A DNA stretch of 64,000 nucleotides from Planktothricoides raciborskii GIHE-MW2 (GTDB lineage: Bacteria; Cyanobacteriota; Cyanobacteriia; Cyanobacteriales; Laspinemataceae). Positions 6,331 through 56,367 of this stretch are shown here, piece by piece. The number at the start of each line of letters is the position of its first letter. Within the stretch, counting starts at the first letter, position 1. Below the pieces are notes generated by a model that did no database searches, had not been told where the DNA came from, and saw only the letters and a program-made list of their open reading frames with translations. The stretch covers positions 3,335,001-3,399,000 of the forward strand of contig NZ_CP159837.1 of the NCBI RefSeq assembly GCF_040564635.1. The letters run 5' to 3'. Both the position numbers and the translations under genes were made by a program.

Positions 6331-6919
6331 AGTCTATCGGTAGTCTGAGAATTTTCTGAAATAGTCTGGTATCCAGGGCTAGACGCAACTTGTCGCCAAA
6401 TGTTCATAGGGTCAGCATTTCCACAACTATACCCATTAAACGCTATCTATATGGGTTGGCGGCGGGAATCCCACTCTACATTTGGGGTAAATCCGTCAGT
6501 CATATGTGTTTAATTTTTGCTTACAATAGCCCTAAGCAAGCATTGAAATTTCTAATTCTAACAATCAGGTGTAAAGAATGTCAGAACCGTTAAGCTAGAG
6601 TCAGTCATCAAGCAATCGTGCCGAGGTATTTTTCTGGTCTTTTTTAACCTGAGTTTTACCCCAAGGCGATCGCGATAGCGTTGCGAAGCAATCTCGCGAT
6701 AGCGTTGCGAAGCAATCTCGCGATAGCGTTGCGAAGCAATCTCGCGATAGCGTTACGAAGCAATCTCGCGATAGTGTTGCGAAGCAATCTCGCGATCAAA
6801 TGGCCGCAGAAAATTACCGCCTAATTATCAGCCTAATTTTCTACCTAATTTTCTGCCTAATTTAATTAATATTGAGTGTAAATTGAGTGTAAATATTAGT
6901 AGATTTCGGAGACTTAGCC
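6331..6919. other. Intergenic region between divergent FAD oxidoreductase and Hpt genes
   Basis: The gap between two divergently read genes holds the 24-bp tandem array at 6672-6791. After it come short direct repeats around CTAATTTTCTGCCTAATTT (6820-6865) and TTGAGTGTAAA (6873-6895). No credible gene is visible; a 67-codon ORF at 6390-6593 has no start signal or recognisable motif. Confidence 0.6.
6672..6791. repeat. Five tandem copies of a 24-bp repeat
   Basis: The unit begins GCGATAGCGTTGCGAAGC and is repeated at 6672, 6696, 6720, 6744 and 6768. Copies 4 and 5 each have one substitution. Each unit holds the palindrome TTGCGAAGCAA-like core, and the array abuts a HIP1-like GCGATCGCG. Units are contiguous with no spacers, so this is not a CRISPR array. 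Confidence 0.9.
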
Positions 6920-7813
6920 GTGGACGAAAGACAACAACAGATTATGATGTATTTCATCGAGGAAGCCAAAGAACACCTCGATACCTTGGAAAAAGGGTTA
7001 TTGGATTTAGACGCAACAATGCAAGATCCCGAAACCTTACAAGAATTATTTCGCGCTGCTCATTCGGTGAAAGGCGGTGCAGCAATGTTAGGATTTAGCA
7101 GCATTCAAAAAACAGCCCACCGCTTAGAGGATGCTTTTAAAATTCTCAAAGAAAACCCCATTGAGGCGAATCAAAAACTAGAAACGTTATTTTTAAAAGG
7201 ATTTGATACCCTGCGGGACTTACTCAATCACCTGGCGAGTCCTGAAGGGCTGAGTGACGAAGAAAGTAATAGGATTGTTAAAGAATCTGAACCGGCTTTT
7301 ATCGATTTAGAAAAATACCTGCATCAATTAATTGGTGTTCCTGAAGATGAAGAAATCGATCCAGAATTTGGAGAAAAAGCTGTGGAATTTTTGCGAGAAA
7401 TGCTGCAAATTTTTAAACAAACTGCCACTGATGCTAACCGGAAAAAATTGGGTTATTTATGTACAAAATTAGCGGAATTAGACAAGGAACTCGCTATCGA
7501 ACCTTGGCAAAAAATTGTCAAAGCAGCGAGTCAAGCGATCGCCAATCCAGATAACCTCTACCCCACCTTAGCCCCGGTAATCATCAAAGAACTAAAAATG
7601 GCCAGTGATTTAGTGGTTTTGGGTCAAACCAATGCGATCGGGCCTAGTCCCGTCCTCGTCCAACTAGCGGGTCCTGCCAAGGGCTTAGGCGAAAACCAAA
7701 TAGCGATCGACCTAGAACCCAAAGCTGCTGCGAAAGCCTTGTTAGGCGCATTTAAGAAAAAACAACTGGTAACGCTGGTCAAATTACTCGCGGAAGCGGT
7801 GAAAAGTATGTAA
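6920..7813 (+). CDS. Hpt-domain histidine phosphotransfer protein
   Basis: The 297-residue protein starts at GTG 6920, preceded by a GGAGAC ribosome site. Residues 5-105 form an Hpt four-helix domain with the phosphorylatable His48 in AAHSVKGGA, the classic Hpt signature. The rest (about 110-297) is helical, without a kinase, CheW or receiver domain, so the protein would act as a phosphate carrier between other two-component proteins. Its partner is not encoded next to it. The end overlaps nothing, and a repeat-rich spacer follows. Confidence 0.85.
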   Translation: MDERQQQIMMYFIEEAKEHLDTLEKGLLDLDATMQDPETLQELFRAAHSVKGGAAMLGFSSIQKTAHRLEDAFKILKENPIEANQKLETLFLKGFDTLRDLLNHLASPEGLSDEESNRIVKESEPAFIDLEKYLHQLIGVPEDEEIDPEFGEKAVEFLREMLQIFKQTATDANRKKLGYLCTKLAELDKELAIEPWQKIVKAASQAIANPDNLYPTLAPVIIKELKMASDLVVLGQTNAIGPSPVLVQLAGPAKGLGENQIAIDLEPKAAAKALLGAFKKKQLVTLVKLLAEAVKSM

Positions 7814-8381
7814 GAGGTTGTTGGTTGTTGGGTAGGGATTCTTTGGGTAGGGATTCTTTGGTTGTTGGGTGTGGGGGAAGAAAGTGAAAAGTGAAAAGTG
7901 GTAGGGGCGAATGGCAATTCGCCCGTACAAAAGAAATATCACTATTCACTATTCACTATTCACTATTTACTATTCACTATTCACTATTCACTATTCACTC
8001 TTCCCCTACACCCTACACCCTACACCCTACACCCTACACGACGGCGGCTTCCCCCTACACCCTCTTTCCTCTTCCCCCTACACCCTACACCCCACACCCT
8101 ACACCCTACACGACGGCGGCTTCCCCCTACACCCCACACCCCACACCCTACACCCTCTCTGCCCCTCCACTCCTCTGCACCTTGGAGAGAACATCCTATC
8201 AATAACTCTGAAAAAAATAGATTTTCCTATTGACAATTTACCCAAATTCTGCGAAAATACTCTTATAAAAATATAATGAGAATCTGTGTCGCCCTACGAT
8301 ATAATTGGCAATTAACAACCAACAACCAACAACAACCAACAACAACCAACCAACAACCAACAATTATCTTGCTGTCCTGCC
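7814..8381. repeat. Low-complexity intergenic repeats before radC
   Basis: The spacer is built from several simple repeats: GGGTAGGGATTCTTT twice near 7840, a palindrome GGGGCGAATGGCAATTCGCCC near 7904-7924, heptamers of CACTATT (7938-8000), blocks of ACCCTAC/CACCCTACA (8003-8160) and ACCAACAACA (8318-8365). A block containing ACGACGGCGGCTTCCCCC occurs twice (8038 and 8110). The ORFs crossing this region in all frames are by-products of the repeats. The GGGATTCTTT repeat recurs in reverse complement near 41688-41717. Confidence 0.85.
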
Positions 8382-9113
8382 ATGACCTATAGCCTCAGAA
8401 TTGCAGATTTACCGCTTAGTGAAAGACCGCGAGAACGCTTAATGGCTTATGGCCCAAAAATTTTATCCACCGCTGAATTAATTGCCATTCTCTTACGCAC
8501 GGGTCAAGGGCAAGGAAAATTATCGGCGGTAGGTTTAGGACAGCATATTTTACAGAAATTAAGCGAAAACCAACGCGACCCCCTGGAACTTCTCCGGGAT
8601 ATGACGGTGCAAGAATTAACCGAAATTCCCGGACTCGGCCCTGCTAAAGCCACCACAATTTTAGCGGCAGTGGAACTGGGCAAACGAGTGTTTTATTCTC
8701 GTCCTCCAGAACGACAAATTATTGATGACCCAGATAAAGCAGCAGCAGCATTAGCCCATGATTTAATGTGGCAAGCCCAAGAAAAGTTTGCGGTGTTATT
8801 GTTGGATGTAAAAAATCGTCTAATTGGCACAAAAGTAATGACTATTGGGACAGCAACGGAAACCCTGGCCCATCCGCGAGAAATTTTCCGGGAAGTGTTG
8901 CGTCAAGGGGCTTCGCGAATCATTATTGCCCATAATCATCCTTCGGGAAATTTAGAACCCAGTCCCGAAGATATTGACCTAACCAGTCATTTGTTACAAG
9001 GGGGGCAATATTTACAAGTACCGATTTTGGATCATTTGATTTTAGGTCAGGGAAATTATCAAAGTTTGCGGCTGATTTGTGATTTATGGGAACAATATCC
9101 CCAAGGGGAATAG
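8382..9113 (+). CDS. radC: RadC family JAB-domain protein
   Basis: The 243-residue protein has the UPF0758/RadC layout. An N-terminal helix-hairpin-helix-like region contains [12 protein letters not shown] (about residues 79-90), and a JAB1/MPN metalloprotease-like domain follows. The metal-binding motif is intact: His184 and His186 in AHNHPSG, and Asp197 in SPEDIDLT. RadC proteins were linked to DNA repair historically, but the biochemical role is unsettled. The start ATG at 8382 follows a repeat-rich spacer, and the length is normal for the family. Confidence 0.92.
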
Positions 9114-51473: not shown

Positions 51474-52496
51474 TACAGCGGTTTTCAAATGAATAAACCA
51501 CAATGCTCAAACCAATTAAAAACATCAGATTCCGTAATTTTACTGAAAGCTTCATTAATTGCTATATCTAAAGCTTCTTTAGTTCTAGCTTTACTAGAAC
51601 GAAGAAATTCTTTAAAGACCAACATAATTCTATCGGGGATAAATCTGGAGAATAGGTAAAAATACAAGCTTATCGCCAATTCTATAGCTTTTCTGACTTT
51701 GACATTTTCATAAACAATTATCCATTAACACCAACGCTCCTGGCAATAAATTAGGCACTAATACTGACTCAAAATATGTTTGAAACACTGCCGAATCTGT
51801 ACTCCTTTCTATAGTCATTGAAGCAATTAAACCATTTCTTCACTTACTGCACCGATTACGCTAATATTTTTCCCTTTATTTCTTGGACATAGTTCAACCA
51901 CCCAGTCCCCAATTTTTCCTCGTCCATACAAACGAGTCATCCCTAAATTTACTGCCGATTCATCCACAAATACCATATTATTAATATCTATCTTGTCTAG
52001 CCATTTTCGATAATCATAACAGTCCTATTGAATATCGCCTCTTTCTTGATCCGAGGCGTAAAGACTTTTTTTTTGCGAGTTAAGCGATTTTTTATTAAGA
52101 ACCGATACATGGTAGATTGACTAACTTTAATTCCTGTTTTTTACTCCACATAATCGCACAACTCTTTAATCAGTATATCTCGTTGTTTCTCAATTTTTGA
52201 TAATATTAAATCCCCGATATACTCAGGGATTTTGGGTGAACGACCCCTAGTATATTGTTTGGGGGTGATTGTTCCGGTTATTCTATAGTGTCGTAATAAA
52301 TTTCTCACAAAAGTTAAACTTACGTCAAATCTCCTCGCCATCTCACGTTGAGACCCTAATTGATTTTGGTAAGCATCTCGGAATCGACTGCGTAAATCGG
52401 TAGAATATGCGGCTGGCATGATCAGAAATAGATAGGGAGCTTAAAAATTCATTATATTATACATGATTGTGGTTCACTAATTTGAAAAACGCTGTA
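51474..52496 (-). mobile_element. IS630-family element, degenerate
   Basis: Imperfect 31-bp inverted repeats bound the element: TACAGCGGTTTTCAAAT (from 51474) and its counterpart ending at 52496. TA is present at both ends, the classic IS630/Tc1 target. Inside lies a broken transposase on the minus strand. The element sits within gvpJ. Confidence 0.88.
51485..52419 (-). pseudogene. IS630-family transposase, frameshifted
   Basis: The N-terminal helix-turn-helix is intact as a 92-codon frame (52419-52141: SQREMARRFDVSLTFVRNLL). Other parts lie in different frames: GIKVSQSTMYRFL, FVDESAVNLGMTRLYGRG (first DDE Asp), VLMDNC (second Asp) and a C-terminus ending NWFEHCGLFI. Several frameshifts and stops separate these parts, so the transposase is inactive. 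Confidence 0.85.
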
Positions 52497-52731
52497 AATA
52501 AGGATCGCTTTCCCACCAGTTAATCCCAATTTCTTTGGCTTTATCCACGGAAGCAATTAACAAACGGATCCGACTCGTTAGCAATTCCGTTGAACCCACA
52601 GATACGGAAATATCACCAGCAATCACAATTCCTTTATCTAACACCCGTTCGAGAATATCTGCCAAGGTACTTCCGGGGGTTGATGTGGTAATTTGATCGC
52701 GTTTTGGACTGTTAATAGAACTTTGTGTCAT
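52477..52731 (-). pseudogene. gvpJ: Gas vesicle protein GvpJ, truncated by IS630
   Basis: The 84-codon frame starts 2 bp after the gvpN stop and has the GvpA/J core (LADILERVLDKGIVIAGDISVSVG...) through NWWESDPYL. The last five codons (QRFSN) are IS630 terminal sequence, not gvpJ. GvpJ is a minor shell protein related to GvpA, thought to act in nucleation or cone tips. The conserved core is whole, so a shortened protein might retain some function; the coiled-coil tail is cut off and lies at 51361-51473. Translation is probably coupled to gvpN. Confidence 0.88.
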
Positions 52732-52733
52732 CG

Positions 52734-54179
52734 TTAAGATAATTTATCCTGTGAAGCAACATAGAGGCGATCGTCTCGTTGAATGAGCAGACCCTTTTTC
52801 AGCAGCGATCGCAGGGCATCAATAGTTTGAAATCGATTCAATCCCAGGGCTTGAGAAATTTGCGAAACGCGCATTCCTTCAGATTTCTGCAAATAGTGAT
52901 AGACTTTTTGTTCAGCTTGTTCAGCTTGTGCAGCTTGTGCAGCTTGTGCAGCTTGTGCAGCTTGTGCGGCTTGTGCAGGATTTAATCCTGTTTCGGCAAG
53001 CGATCGCTTGCCGAAAGCGGAATTTTCTGACTGCGGGGAATTGGACTTTCCATTCAGCAGTGCTTTGCCATTTTTAAAACTTTCCGAACCCAGGGAAATG
53101 TGTAATTTATGACCATTCTCATCATAATTCGGTGCTTCAACAATTAAAGGTTCTGAGGGATTCACCTCAGCCGGGTTTGGCGTTGTTGACGGGTTCTCAA
53201 CTCGCTGATTAGGCAAGCCATCTCTCAGGGGCAAATTATTAACTTTGGCTAGAGAAACCGGGGTAATTCGAGACTCGAAAAACTGATCCAAAATTGCCTG
53301 GGCTTTTGCCCACTCTAAATTAGTCCGTGACAGCAGCACATCAGTACAAACGTCTCGAAAATCCGGGTTATTTTCCTGCACCATCAGATTATGTTCTTTG
53401 CTGACTTTTGCAATCATCAAACAAGAACGTAAAGGCGAAGAATGTTTAGCCCTTTTTGCGTGATGAGATGTTTCCGGGAGACTTTGTTTCACCGTGTCCC
53501 GAAATGCTTTGACAATTTGCACAATTCGCAGGGCAGACTCCGGATCGATCTTGGTTTTTTGTACCAAAATTGCTTGTTGGGTCTGATCATCCGGATCAGG
53601 CATACTAATCGTCACCAATCGGTCTAATAGCGCGTCTTGAGTGCCATGCACTCCGCAAGATTCTTCGGGGTTAGAGGTAAAAATTGCCCGAAAATGGGGA
53701 TTAACCCGAATATATTCTGATTGCCCTTCCCCCGAAGGCAAAATTAACAGTTTTTCTTCTAATGCCGAGAGAAAAACATTATTCACTTCCGGGCGAGATC
53801 GGTTAAATTCGTCATAAACTAAAGTAAACCCTTCTTTACAGGCTAAAGTCAACCGCTCCTCATTCCAATTTTGTGTTAATTCATCTTCAATCTTGACCAC
53901 GCTATGAATAAAATTATCCACCACTTTTCGGCGATTATAACCATTTTTATTGCCAATTAAATCCGAATAGTTTAACTCGCGATCGCCAAAAATGATCATC
54001 ATGGGACGCCCTACTAAGTTGGCTAAATGCAGCGCCAGAGTAGTTTTACCCGTCCCCGCTGGGCCGCGTAGGTGGATGGAAAAGCCGGAGTTTAAATATC
54101 TCAGGGTTCGCTTGGCAAGGCGTTCAACCGCTGGTGTATTAACAAATTGTCTTGGACGTGCTTGGATGACAGTAGCCAT
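52734..54179 (-). CDS. gvpN: Gas vesicle ATPase GvpN with C-terminal winged-helix-like extension
   Basis: Residues 1-330 are a MoxR-type AAA+ ATPase: Walker A GPAGTGKT (39-46), Walker B TLVYDE (119-124), sensor region IFTSNPEE. GvpN enlarges gas vesicles beyond the initial cones. The protein has 481 residues, well above the roughly 330-350 I expect for the family. The extra part has a disordered segment (about 310-395), an AQA repeat and a C-terminal 53-residue domain (423-475) resembling the one at the end of GvpC. The neighbours are gvpC 283 bp upstream and gvpJ 2 bp downstream. Confidence 0.92.
52908..52979. repeat. Eight 9-bp repeats in gvpN encoding an AQA linker
   Basis: TTG(T/G)(T/G)CAGC-type 9-mers repeat eight times on the plus strand, encoding (QAA/QAE) units before the GvpN C-terminal domain. 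Being a multiple of three, gain or loss of units would change linker length without frameshift. Confidence 0.92.
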
Positions 54180-54462
54180 TTTGGTTCCGAACGGTGATGA
54201 TTGGTTAACTGTTATTGGTTGACAGTTTACAGTAATTAGTGAATCAATTTTTGCTAGTAATCTGTGAATTAACTGTTTTATTGTTTGCTACTTTTGACGG
54301 TTGATTTTTTCTCACCCCGCGTCTCAGGAGCAATCAATCAATAACCGAATGATTTGGGCAAATTTAAGTGTTATCTAAGGGTTATAGATATCCATAAAAT
54401 TTGGTGGGCATTGCCCACCCTACATAATTGAATAAATTTTTCCCCCTTGAGTTTACACAAGT

Positions 54463-55731
54463 TTACACAATCAGATAGTCCCGATTATTTTGGGTAATTA
54501 ATCCTTGATCGATCAGGGATTGGAGGATATCAACGGTTTGAATGCGGTTGATCTGTAACCGTTCTTCAATATCTTTAATTCGCGCCGATTTTACTTGCTT
54601 CAGGTAATCATAGACTGCTTGCTGCATAGGGTCGGCGATCGCGGTCGTACTTGGGGTGGCAACGGATGGCGCGGGGGTTGCCAATAGTCCGGGGGCCGGG
54701 GGCGCCGCAGAAAGGGAGATCGGTGGCGCGATCACCTTTGGTGAGTCGGTTTGTGGGGTCTCCGGAGGGGCGATCGGTGGCCAGTCTGCCTTTGGTGGGA
54801 CCGTTTCTGGGTCTTTTGGTGGGGTCTCTGGTTGTGGGGTTTGTGTCCTGGGGGTTGGGGACACTGCTGATGGAGGTTTCGTCACGGGTGCAGAGGCGAT
54901 CGCTGGTGCAGTAGGCGCAGTAACTCGACTAGGGACGGGTTGAGCAAACGGGATCGATTTCGTAGGGGCGTCCCCTCTGTGGTCGCCCCCAGGATCGCCC
55001 CCTGGAGATTGTACCTGGGTTGGTGTCGGCATATAGCCCCAAACCTGATTAGACAAATTGACGCGATATTCTTTAACATTGCCCCACATTTCCGCTTGTA
55101 AAGTGGCGATTTCTTGTTGCCGCTGCCAACGTAAATTAGCAAAGCTATCGTATAAAGTTTGCAGAGTTTGCGATCGCTGCTGACGCTCGGCCAGGAAAGT
55201 TTCCTGTAACTCTTGGGCAACTTGTTGTTGTTGCCAATCAAACTCTTGCAAATAAGCGGCCACATCTGACGACAGTTGGTGCATAAACTGCTCCAAATAT
55301 TCAGTCAATTCAGCTTTCATATCCATTCGCTGATAATGACATTCTTGGAGAAACTGGATCGCATAACGGTTGAGATGATAGTGAAAAGCCTGCAATACTT
55401 TTGTTTGGTCTTGAGCCATTGTCGAGCGTTCTTGGGCTATATTACTGAGAAACTGCCTAGTTTCTGCCGCCAAAATATTGGCAAACTCATCTAATGCCTG
55501 CATAAATCGCTGACTATTTTGATAGCGCTGCTCTCGACAATTGTTTAAAAATTGTTCCGTTTGCACCTGGATCTGGCTGTAATAATCACTGAGGGATTGG
55601 CGCATTTCTCGACTCATATTGACCCGGTTTTCTCGCCAAACTGCCAAATCCTCACTCACTTGTTTTTGGCGAGCCCGTAACTCTTGCTGACGCTGCTGTC
55701 TTTGGGCTTGCCATTCATTAAAAAGAGCCAT
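54463..55731 (-). CDS. gvpC: Gas vesicle protein GvpC with C-terminal winged-helix-like domain
   Basis: Residues 1-235 are Gln/Glu/Arg-rich amphipathic helices with degenerate 33-residue-type GvpC repeats (for example QFLNNCREQRYQNSQRFMQALDEF). GvpC lies on the outside of the gas vesicle and strengthens it against pressure. A Pro/Ala/Ser-rich linker (about 238-366) is followed by a 53-residue domain (370-422) homologous by eye to the GvpN C-terminus. At 422 residues it is longer than classical Anabaena-type GvpC. The gene follows gvpA after 119 bp that include a terminator-like hairpin, and a GAGG ribosome site precedes its start. Confidence 0.88.
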   Translation of the reverse strand: MALFNEWQAQRQQRQQELRARQKQVSEDLAVWRENRVNMSREMRQSLSDYYSQIQVQTEQFLNNCREQRYQNSQRFMQALDEFANILAAETRQFLSNIAQERSTMAQDQTKVLQAFHYHLNRYAIQFLQECHYQRMDMKAELTEYLEQFMHQLSSDVAAYLQEFDWQQQQVAQELQETFLAERQQRSQTLQTLYDSFANLRWQRQQEIATLQAEMWGNVKEYRVNLSNQVWGYMPTPTQVQSPGGDPGGDHRGDAPTKSIPFAQPVPSRVTAPTAPAIASAPVTKPPSAVSPTPRTQTPQPETPPKDPETVPPKADWPPIAPPETPQTDSPKVIAPPISLSAAPPAPGLLATPAPSVATPSTTAIADPMQQAVYDYLKQVKSARIKDIEERLQINRIQTVDILQSLIDQGLITQNNRDYLIV

Positions 55732-55838: not shown

Positions 55839-55869
55839 AAAAAATTGCCGTTAGTTGGCTGGAACGGCA
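55839..55869 (-). terminator. Attenuator-like hairpin at the gvpA stop codon
   Basis: On the minus strand, TGCCGTT and AACGGCA pair over a 10-base loop (55869-55846), and the T-run lies at 55844-55839. The left arm is inside the last gvpA codons (Ala-Val), and the loop and right arm include the stop TAA. It could end most transcripts after gvpA and let few continue into gvpC-N-J. Confidence 0.72.
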
Positions 55870-56069
55870 GATTGAGACGTCAAACCCACTGCCTCAGCAT
55901 ACTTCAAGTAAGTTTCGACGGAAGCGATGACAACCCGTGCTTCGATCGATAACAACTCGATACCGACGAGAAATACCCGTACCCAAGCATCGACCACCAC
56001 CCCTTTATCAAGGATGCGATCAACAACTTCTGCCAAGCTTGAGGAAGAATTCATTTTTTCAACAGCCAT
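55851..56069 (-). CDS. gvpA: Major gas vesicle structural protein GvpA
   Basis: The 72-residue protein starts [19 protein letters not shown] and has the strongly conserved GvpA core ([42 protein letters not shown]). It forms the ribs of the gas vesicle wall, the gas-filled buoyancy organelle. The longer frame to 56138 is not used: a GGAG ribosome site fits the ATG at 56069, and the protein start is typical. It is the first gene of gvpA-C-N-J; one gvpA copy is seen. Confidence 0.96.
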
Positions 56070-56367
56070 GATGTTATCTCCTAAATAATCAAATTTTGAG
56101 GGTTGATTTGGCTGAATTGACTCAGCAGTGAAGACCAACTGACTGGTAAAGCCGTGATTCGTTGGCGATCTTTAAAGCTTCAGATCAGTTTTGAGTTTTT
56201 CACTGAAGACCAGTTTAGACGAAATATCCCCAGGGTTTGCACGCTCCGAGCAAAATCTTTGTTAGTGGAACTAACTCTGGGGATATACTCGCTCTCGGAG
56301 GATAGATACACTATATATATATGCGTGAGATTCGGAAGAGCGCAAAAGCAGAGGCCAATAGGCTGAA
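56070..56367 (-). promoter_or_regulatory. gvpA upstream region with nested inverted repeats
   Basis: Between gvpA and the intron relic lie ATATCCCCAG (56224-56233) and CTGGGGATAT (56277-56286), perfect 10-bp arms. They enclose the hairpin GTTAGT-GGA-ACTAAC (56261-56275), and CTCCGAG (56243-56249) can pair with CTCGGAG (56294-56300). TATATATATA (56312-56321) could supply a -10 region for the minus strand. The arms might bind a regulator or fold in the leader mRNA; the promoter itself is not certain. Confidence 0.45.

Follow-up and report, generated by a model that had tools for sequence, protein, structure and literature searches.

The DNA analysed in this study, referred to as the window, is a stretch of 64,000 nucleotides from the cyanobacterium Planktothricoides raciborskii GIHE-MW2 that harbors four gas vesicle genes on its minus strand. 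The first, gvpA (55851..56138), is identified by its match to Pfam Gas_vesicle (E 1.6e-15) and to NF006874 (130.6 bits), and its open reading frame was called from an upstream TTG, with the usual GvpA start MAVEKMN located internally. The adjacent gvpC (54463..55731) encodes a protein of 422 residues that consists of an N-terminal region (residues ~1–233), a proline-rich linker of low complexity (residues 234–366; 54634..55032) and a C-terminal winged-helix module (residues 370–422; 54466..54624), the latter delineated by alignment, an AF2 model and Pfam TrmB. It is followed by gvpN (52734..54179), whose product of 481 residues comprises an AAA+ region (12–285), a linker (307–400; 52980..53261), an Ala/Gln repeat (401–422) and, directly after this repeat, a winged-helix module of its own (423–475; 52755..52913), located by alignment, Pfam TrmB and the full-length model. 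The last gene (52477..52731) also matches Gas_vesicle (E 9.5e-15) and is described here as gvpJ-like, since its best NCBIfam match, GvpJ, was found at 57.6 bits, below the cut-off of 125. Just past it, a short open reading frame (52141-52419) with a match to HTH_28 under the cut-off (E 0.0014) resembles, by eye, the remnant of a transposase.

The identity of GvpN is secured by TIGR02640 (362.7 bits compared to a cut-off of 266.8, E 1.1e-108), whose match ends at residue 285 and leaves the module outside the AAA+ part, as had been claimed in a first-pass annotation made from the sequence alone. GvpC, which at 15.9 bits falls below the 18.8 cut-off of TIGR02641 for the 33-residue repeat, was assigned from the location of its gene between gvpA and gvpN and the likeness of its N-terminus to other such genes rather than by the repeat model, and its classification as type I (see below) relies on an N-terminal profile that was itself made from module-bearing reading frames.

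The window cluster is confined to gvpA, gvpC, gvpN and gvpJ. Matches to GvpK and GvpF/L are located elsewhere in the genome, and the cluster may depend on accessory proteins of two others (L005 and L006; G000:C1:6086000-6104000 and 6222000-6241000), where GvpC is short and of a different kind. Two further GvpN genes of the same genome also end in the module, and the GvpC-like gene of 128 codons upstream of each is devoid of it. In L005, a single reading frame (6995-7468) matches first GvpK and then Gas_vesicle (of the GvpA/J type) and represents a fusion that is equally found in L006; the latter shows no Gas_vesicle match at 8283-8845, where the near-identical L005 has gvpJ (with seven matches genome-wide).

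Likeness and fold of the terminal modules

Residues 423–475 of GvpN align with residues 370–422 of GvpC without gaps and with 19 identities in 53 positions, which renders exact the count of 19 in about 50 that the first-pass annotation had given. This pair attains a BLOSUM62 local score of 105, whereas 2000 shuffles averaged 23.6 and never exceeded 49 (z 17.7), and the best local alignment of the entire proteins falls on the same region. The two modules are homologous, and each is attached C-terminally via a linker. The low complexity noticed earlier in both linkers is evident from the 36 prolines among the 133 residues at 234–366 of GvpC, and in GvpN from a pLDDT below 50 over residues 307–399 together with the Ala/Gln repeat.

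A winged-helix-like fold had been proposed for the shared region, and structure prediction, Pfam and Foldseek agree on it, with no sign of unrelated folds in the two proteins. An AlphaFold model of the GvpC module, based on 17 sequences, reached a pLDDT of 94.1 and shows the canonical order of elements (helices 7–19, 24–31 and 35–47, strands 51–54 and 57–60). The same order is found for the GvpN module in a full-length model, with block pLDDT values of 70–91 over the module; as a whole this model is poor (mean pLDDT 59.7, 9 sequences), and the packing of the module on the AAA+ region is not readable from it. Pfam TrmB (PF01978) matches residues 421–470 of GvpN above its cut-off of 25.6 bits (26.7 bits, E 4.9e-6) and residues 373–417 of the entire GvpC below it (16.8 bits, E 0.0062; E 1.8e-4 for the module alone). 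It recognizes 34 of 38 module rows at E 0.01, and the Pfam matches of the modules fall to TrmB, MarR and HTH_27. Among the best 50 matches listed in a Foldseek search of the PDB, the probability was 1.0 and the query TM-score up to 0.89, with no E-value at or below 1e-3, and the neighbors listed are winged helices, including OhrR, FtsK gamma, Z-DNA-binding domains, CadC, AspA and Cul1 WHB. The predictions thus support the assignment of the module as a small winged-helix domain of a kind that is usual in transcription regulators.

Distribution, origin and constraint

The occurrence of the module was investigated at several taxonomic levels. At the order level, 194 genomes were sampled, of which 46 contain GvpN above the cut-off, and all 55 such places, the window included, were examined. 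A profile built from GvpN modules alone covers 32 of these 55 GvpN proteins and detects 22 further reading frames (E 7e-22 to 4e-14), which are GvpC-like or, in one case (L056), a piece of gvpC; the GvpC of the window was found by this profile at E 5.6e-17. In a class-level sample, in which scoring extended to at most 16 candidates of each genome and matches were placed in the genomes selected for closer analysis, the module was detected at E 0.001 in 121 of 388 genomes, twice in 89 of them, once in 29, three times in two and four times only in the genome described here. Third matches were observed in G199 and G231, and one match in G490 is located about 6 kb away from its gvpN. Of the module-bearing genomes, 118 also belong to the 179 in which GvpN was found; in the other three (G041, G316 and G452), which have no GvpN match, the module match is weak (E 2e-4 to 7e-4). 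Within the samples searched, genomes that carry the module thus nearly always have GvpN, which ties it to gas vesicles.

We have combined the order-level places with 80 further regions of the class, picked by hand as one or two per genus out of 170 genomes above the cut-off. In this set, the module is present on 86 of 134 GvpN reading frames and on 82 others, as judged by a profile built from the order-level rows, which consequently match by construction, whereas those of the class do not. With one exception (L190, where the piece examined contains no gvpN frame), the non-GvpN carriers all share the strand of gvpN and are located upstream of it at a distance of at most 440 bp (81/82). Among the 80 clusters in which a type I GvpC bears the module, gvpC and gvpN overlap by 4 bases in 32. 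The presence of the module on both proteins in relatives is therefore strongly supported, and its confinement to only one of them in all relatives, envisaged earlier as a possible outcome, was not observed. For the survey of co-occurrence that had been proposed, Oscillatoriales proved too narrow a frame, since many families of the class have matches.

In 98 genomes of a phylum-level sample, matches outside of the class were weak (E 1.5e-7 at best, within open frames of 134–202 residues) and are taken as ordinary wHTH proteins. A plasmid search yielded one confirmed carrier, a gvpN of Nostoc sphaeroides, and six weak unannotated matches in Ensifer (E 0.03-0.05), and 33 pattern matches on viral contigs contained none that was confirmed as module. 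It is also absent from GvpN of one Halobacterium and one Octadecabacter plasmid, and from GvpC of that Halobacterium.

In phylogenetic trees, the modules of GvpC and GvpN mostly group apart. A tree of 133 modules, drawn from 168 module-bearing frames after removal of short matches and near-copies within a kind, requires 5 changes of the GvpC label compared to 44 in shuffles. In a 95-row tree, from which further near-copies were dropped along with seven rows that were long or odd, enforcing GvpC modules as a single clade gave a log-likelihood 13 above that of the free search (AU p 0.73). These trees rest on 59 columns with most forks unsupported; a single origin of the GvpC modules fits them without being proven. 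The two copies were likely split by one old duplication between the neighbors gvpC and gvpN and subsequently inherited as two kinds. The 19 identities in the window, shared between neighboring genes, could alternatively reflect a recent gene conversion, and in the free 95-row tree the row nearest to the GvpC module of the window is indeed a GvpN module. However, the low number of label changes and the result for the constrained tree disfavor such an event, which we consider extremely improbable.

Conservation was quantified in 67 of the 68 clusters that carry both modules. For GvpC, the mean pairwise identity is 0.52 in the module, 0.33 in the N-terminus and 0.28 in the linker, whereas for GvpN it amounts to 0.74 in the AAA+ region, 0.38 in the module and 0.20 in the linker. 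In clusters with both copies, the module is thus the best-conserved part of GvpC, and it is more constrained than the part supposed to hold this protein on the shell. Correlated change between the two modules is low, with a partial correlation of their distances of 0.11 given the AAA+ region (67 pairs; maximum of 500 permutations 0.20) and of 0.18, 0.28 and 0.21 given the distances of GvpK, GvpJ or GvpF, values that are in the latter three cases the lowest or second lowest among six pairs of parts. A proposed coevolution between the GvpC module and the AAA+ region (partial r 0.58) was dropped, since the N-terminus of GvpC correlates about equally.

The relationship between the modules was further analysed with respect to the type of GvpC, where type I and type II are labels of this analysis that refer to profiles of N-termini, the former obtained from 68 of the 80 module-bearing frames and the latter from 7 frames chosen by eye. 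Among 105 clusters with a type I GvpC, 68 contain both modules, 7 only that of GvpN, 12 only that of GvpC and 18 neither. Type II, which we take to be the Anabaena type, is without module in all of its 21 clusters, 9 of which carry one on GvpN and 12 on neither protein; in 8 clusters, GvpC was recognized by neither profile. The raw association in type I clusters is pronounced (odds ratio 14.6, p 1.9e-7); counted by independent events, in a test that omitted clusters with other GvpC types and L148, whose gvpC is probably frame-shifted, it reduces to two to three well-supported independent pairs with no direction. As each module occurs without the other, they do not strictly depend on each other, and an obligate pair is not supported in light of the occurrence of all four combinations, the lack of backing by independent events and the weak coupling of distances.

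In several lineages, the module is missing. Within one genus, two clusters encode a GvpC of 39.9 and 39.6 kDa with module (L081 and L085) and two others one of 28.6 kDa without it (L083 and L084), in which tblastn with the long GvpC finds no trace. In size, these pairs match the non-planktic and planktic strains of Planktothrix (PMC5259702), to which they likely correspond, with the genus assigned from these sizes alone. Moreover, 10 of the 12 clusters with the module only on GvpC belong to one family (f56), where GvpN instead ends in a tail of 55–139 residues rich in Asp and Glu. Both observations would be accounted for if the module were a tail aiding solubility or folding, or a passenger without binding partner. 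That the conservation of the GvpC module in 67 clusters exceeds that of all other parts of the protein, and that it contains nearly fixed residues on its third helix, argues against such a role, which we consider very unlikely. In Arthrospira sp. PCC 9108 (L094), a frame of 61 residues (6685-6870) starts a GvpC-type module, stops after DALR and sits upstream of an intact module-bearing GvpN; its gvpC may be damaged.

Candidate functions

The kind of fold raises the question of a role in DNA binding, where GvpC, GvpN or both would feed back on the transcription of gvpA. Such a role would be in line with the properties of the DNA-binding regulators that share the fold, as reflected in the broad TrmB matches and the presence of OhrR, CadC, FtsK gamma and AspA among the listed Foldseek neighbors, with the net charge of +4 of the GvpN module in the window and with a 14-nt inverted repeat upstream of gvpA (56224-56286, arms 35 nt apart). 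However, when searched with up to two mismatches per arm, this repeat recurs among the loci compared only in the same species (L082), and no operator conserved beyond this species was found. The third helix, which in known wHTH proteins faces the DNA, has a consensus of about N-R-[F/V/I]-Q-[A/T]-V-D-A-L-R-S-L, and at the usual DNA-facing positions, placed from the alignment and from known wHTH proteins, the residues in 64 rows of GvpC modules are mostly Val (97%) and Asp (83%) instead of basic ones. The mean net charge is -0.1 in GvpC modules (0 in that of the window) and 0.0 in type I GvpN modules. Counting against this argument from charge are, besides the window GvpN, eight modules of type II GvpN, which average +2.5, and a smaller set of modules with flanks, in which GvpN gave a mean of +1.7. 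GvpC is, in addition, known from the literature as a shell protein, and the near-confinement of the module to genomes with GvpN connects it to gas vesicles, although the latter does not speak against DNA as such. Binding of nucleic acids is consequently disfavored and appears unlikely, and the character of helix 3 in GvpC, the near-zero mean charges and the restriction of the repeat to one species instead favor docking to protein, more firmly for GvpC than for GvpN.

We thus propose, with a probability of about 0.45, that the winged helix has been reused as a protein-docking domain, which might attach GvpN to GvpC or bring the two proteins to a common site. This reading draws on the homology and predicted fold of the modules, the adjacency of gvpC and gvpN, the conservation of the GvpC module, the residues of its helix 3 and a parallel in Halobacterium, where GvpN binds the C-terminal part of GvpC as judged from split-GFP and pulldown experiments, and where GvpC self-associates via this part and GvpN pulls down its monomeric form (PMC9372576). 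As halobacterial GvpC and GvpN are both without the module, this binding is relevant as analogy. GvpN of Anabaena sp. PCC 7120 is described as an active ATPase (PMC7204071), and in other organisms the protein is needed for growth past the bicone stage (PMC11445434). In the proposed mechanism, the N-terminal helices of GvpC would hold it on the shell, such that its tethered module would offer a landing site at the vesicle surface, to which GvpN would be brought by its own copy, either by pairing of modules or because both compete for a common site provided by the AAA+ ring or by another Gvp protein. The motor, once brought to the growing rib, might then load, strip or rearrange GvpC. Counting against this proposal are the 12 GvpC-only and 7 GvpN-only clusters of type I, the 9 GvpN-only clusters of type II, the few independent events behind the association and the weak correlation of distances between the modules.

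Clusters with one module of two would be accounted for if both proteins docked separately on a common third Gvp, such as a shell protein, GvpJ, GvpK or GvpF/L, without ever touching, in which case the duplication would have spread an address tag. In Halobacterium, the C-terminal part of GvpC has GvpF, GvpH, GvpI and GvpL as further binding partners, and GvpL is also bound by GvpN (PMC9372576). The data do not separate this possibility, against which the odds appear to stand, from the preferred docking of GvpN to GvpC or of both to one site, which likewise allows a shared site. A more specific and rather unlikely version of the preferred docking assumes that the GvpN module mimics that of GvpC, with both fitting a single site on the AAA+ ring of GvpN or fitting one another. 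At the vesicle surface, the motor would then switch between binding itself and binding GvpC. If this were true, GvpC would be a direct substrate of the gas vesicle ATPase where two or more module matches are present, as in 92 of the 179 sampled genomes with GvpN, or roughly half, and would have no such role in clusters with a type II GvpC.

Collectively, the module is real, widespread and conserved, and we infer its function by analogy. A homologous, widespread domain on both proteins provides a concrete handle on the action of GvpN and the loading of GvpC onto the growing shell. The published interaction data considered here come from Halobacterium, whose proteins do not contain it. With about 55 residues each, the two domains lend themselves to expression, mixing and mutation. 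Docking of GvpN on GvpC by way of the module, if it occurs, would make a main step of vesicle growth testable and offer engineered vesicles a natural point of attachment on GvpC.

Comparison with known systems

With regulators of the TrmB, MarR and ArsR type (PF01978 and others), the modules share the fold and the order of elements, and GvpN even exceeds the TrmB cut-off. TrmB proteins carry an N-terminal wHTH domain followed by an effector-binding domain, an arrangement found for neither module, since both are C-terminal on a linker with no domain after them. GvpC moreover stays below the cut-off and, unlike in these families, its helix 3 is hydrophobic and acidic. Among the Foldseek matches listed, FtsK gamma is a small C-terminal winged helix of a ring-shaped motor, although the family of this motor differs from that of GvpN. 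According to its PDB title, it was solved bound to the DNA site KOPS.

A likeness between both proteins has received partial prior notice in one genus, without explanation, in a 2017 paper on GvpC40 and GvpN of Planktothrix, which we take to be that of Pancrace et al. In its accessible text, a 28-residue stretch at the C-terminus of GvpC40 is 64% identical to Planktothrix GvpN, 60 residues of this C-terminus resemble GvpC of Geitlerinema, and the long GvpC is restricted to non-planktic strains (PMC5259702). The statement of the first-pass annotation that the pair had not been described thus does not hold for the likeness as such, whereas no fold is named in that part of the paper; compared to it, the winged-helix fold, the survey beyond Planktothrix and Geitlerinema, the origin and the proposed function are added here. 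Other published gas vesicle work, in the parts available, concerns Anabaena and a pNL29 cluster, presumably that of Bacillus megaterium. In the open literature, no title or abstract was found that describes the module on GvpN or GvpC; subscription papers and preprints were outside of this search, and an earlier notice there is possible.

The layout of GvpC finds a counterpart in Halobacterium, whose GvpC (L206 1667-2815) ends, after an acidic linker, in a ROS_MUCR-like domain (Pfam, E 1.9e-6). Both proteins combine helical repeats with a low-complexity linker and a small regulator-type domain at the C-terminus, although the domain belongs to another family. This design hence occurs twice with different domains, a ROS_MUCR-like one in Halobacterium and a winged helix in cyanobacteria.
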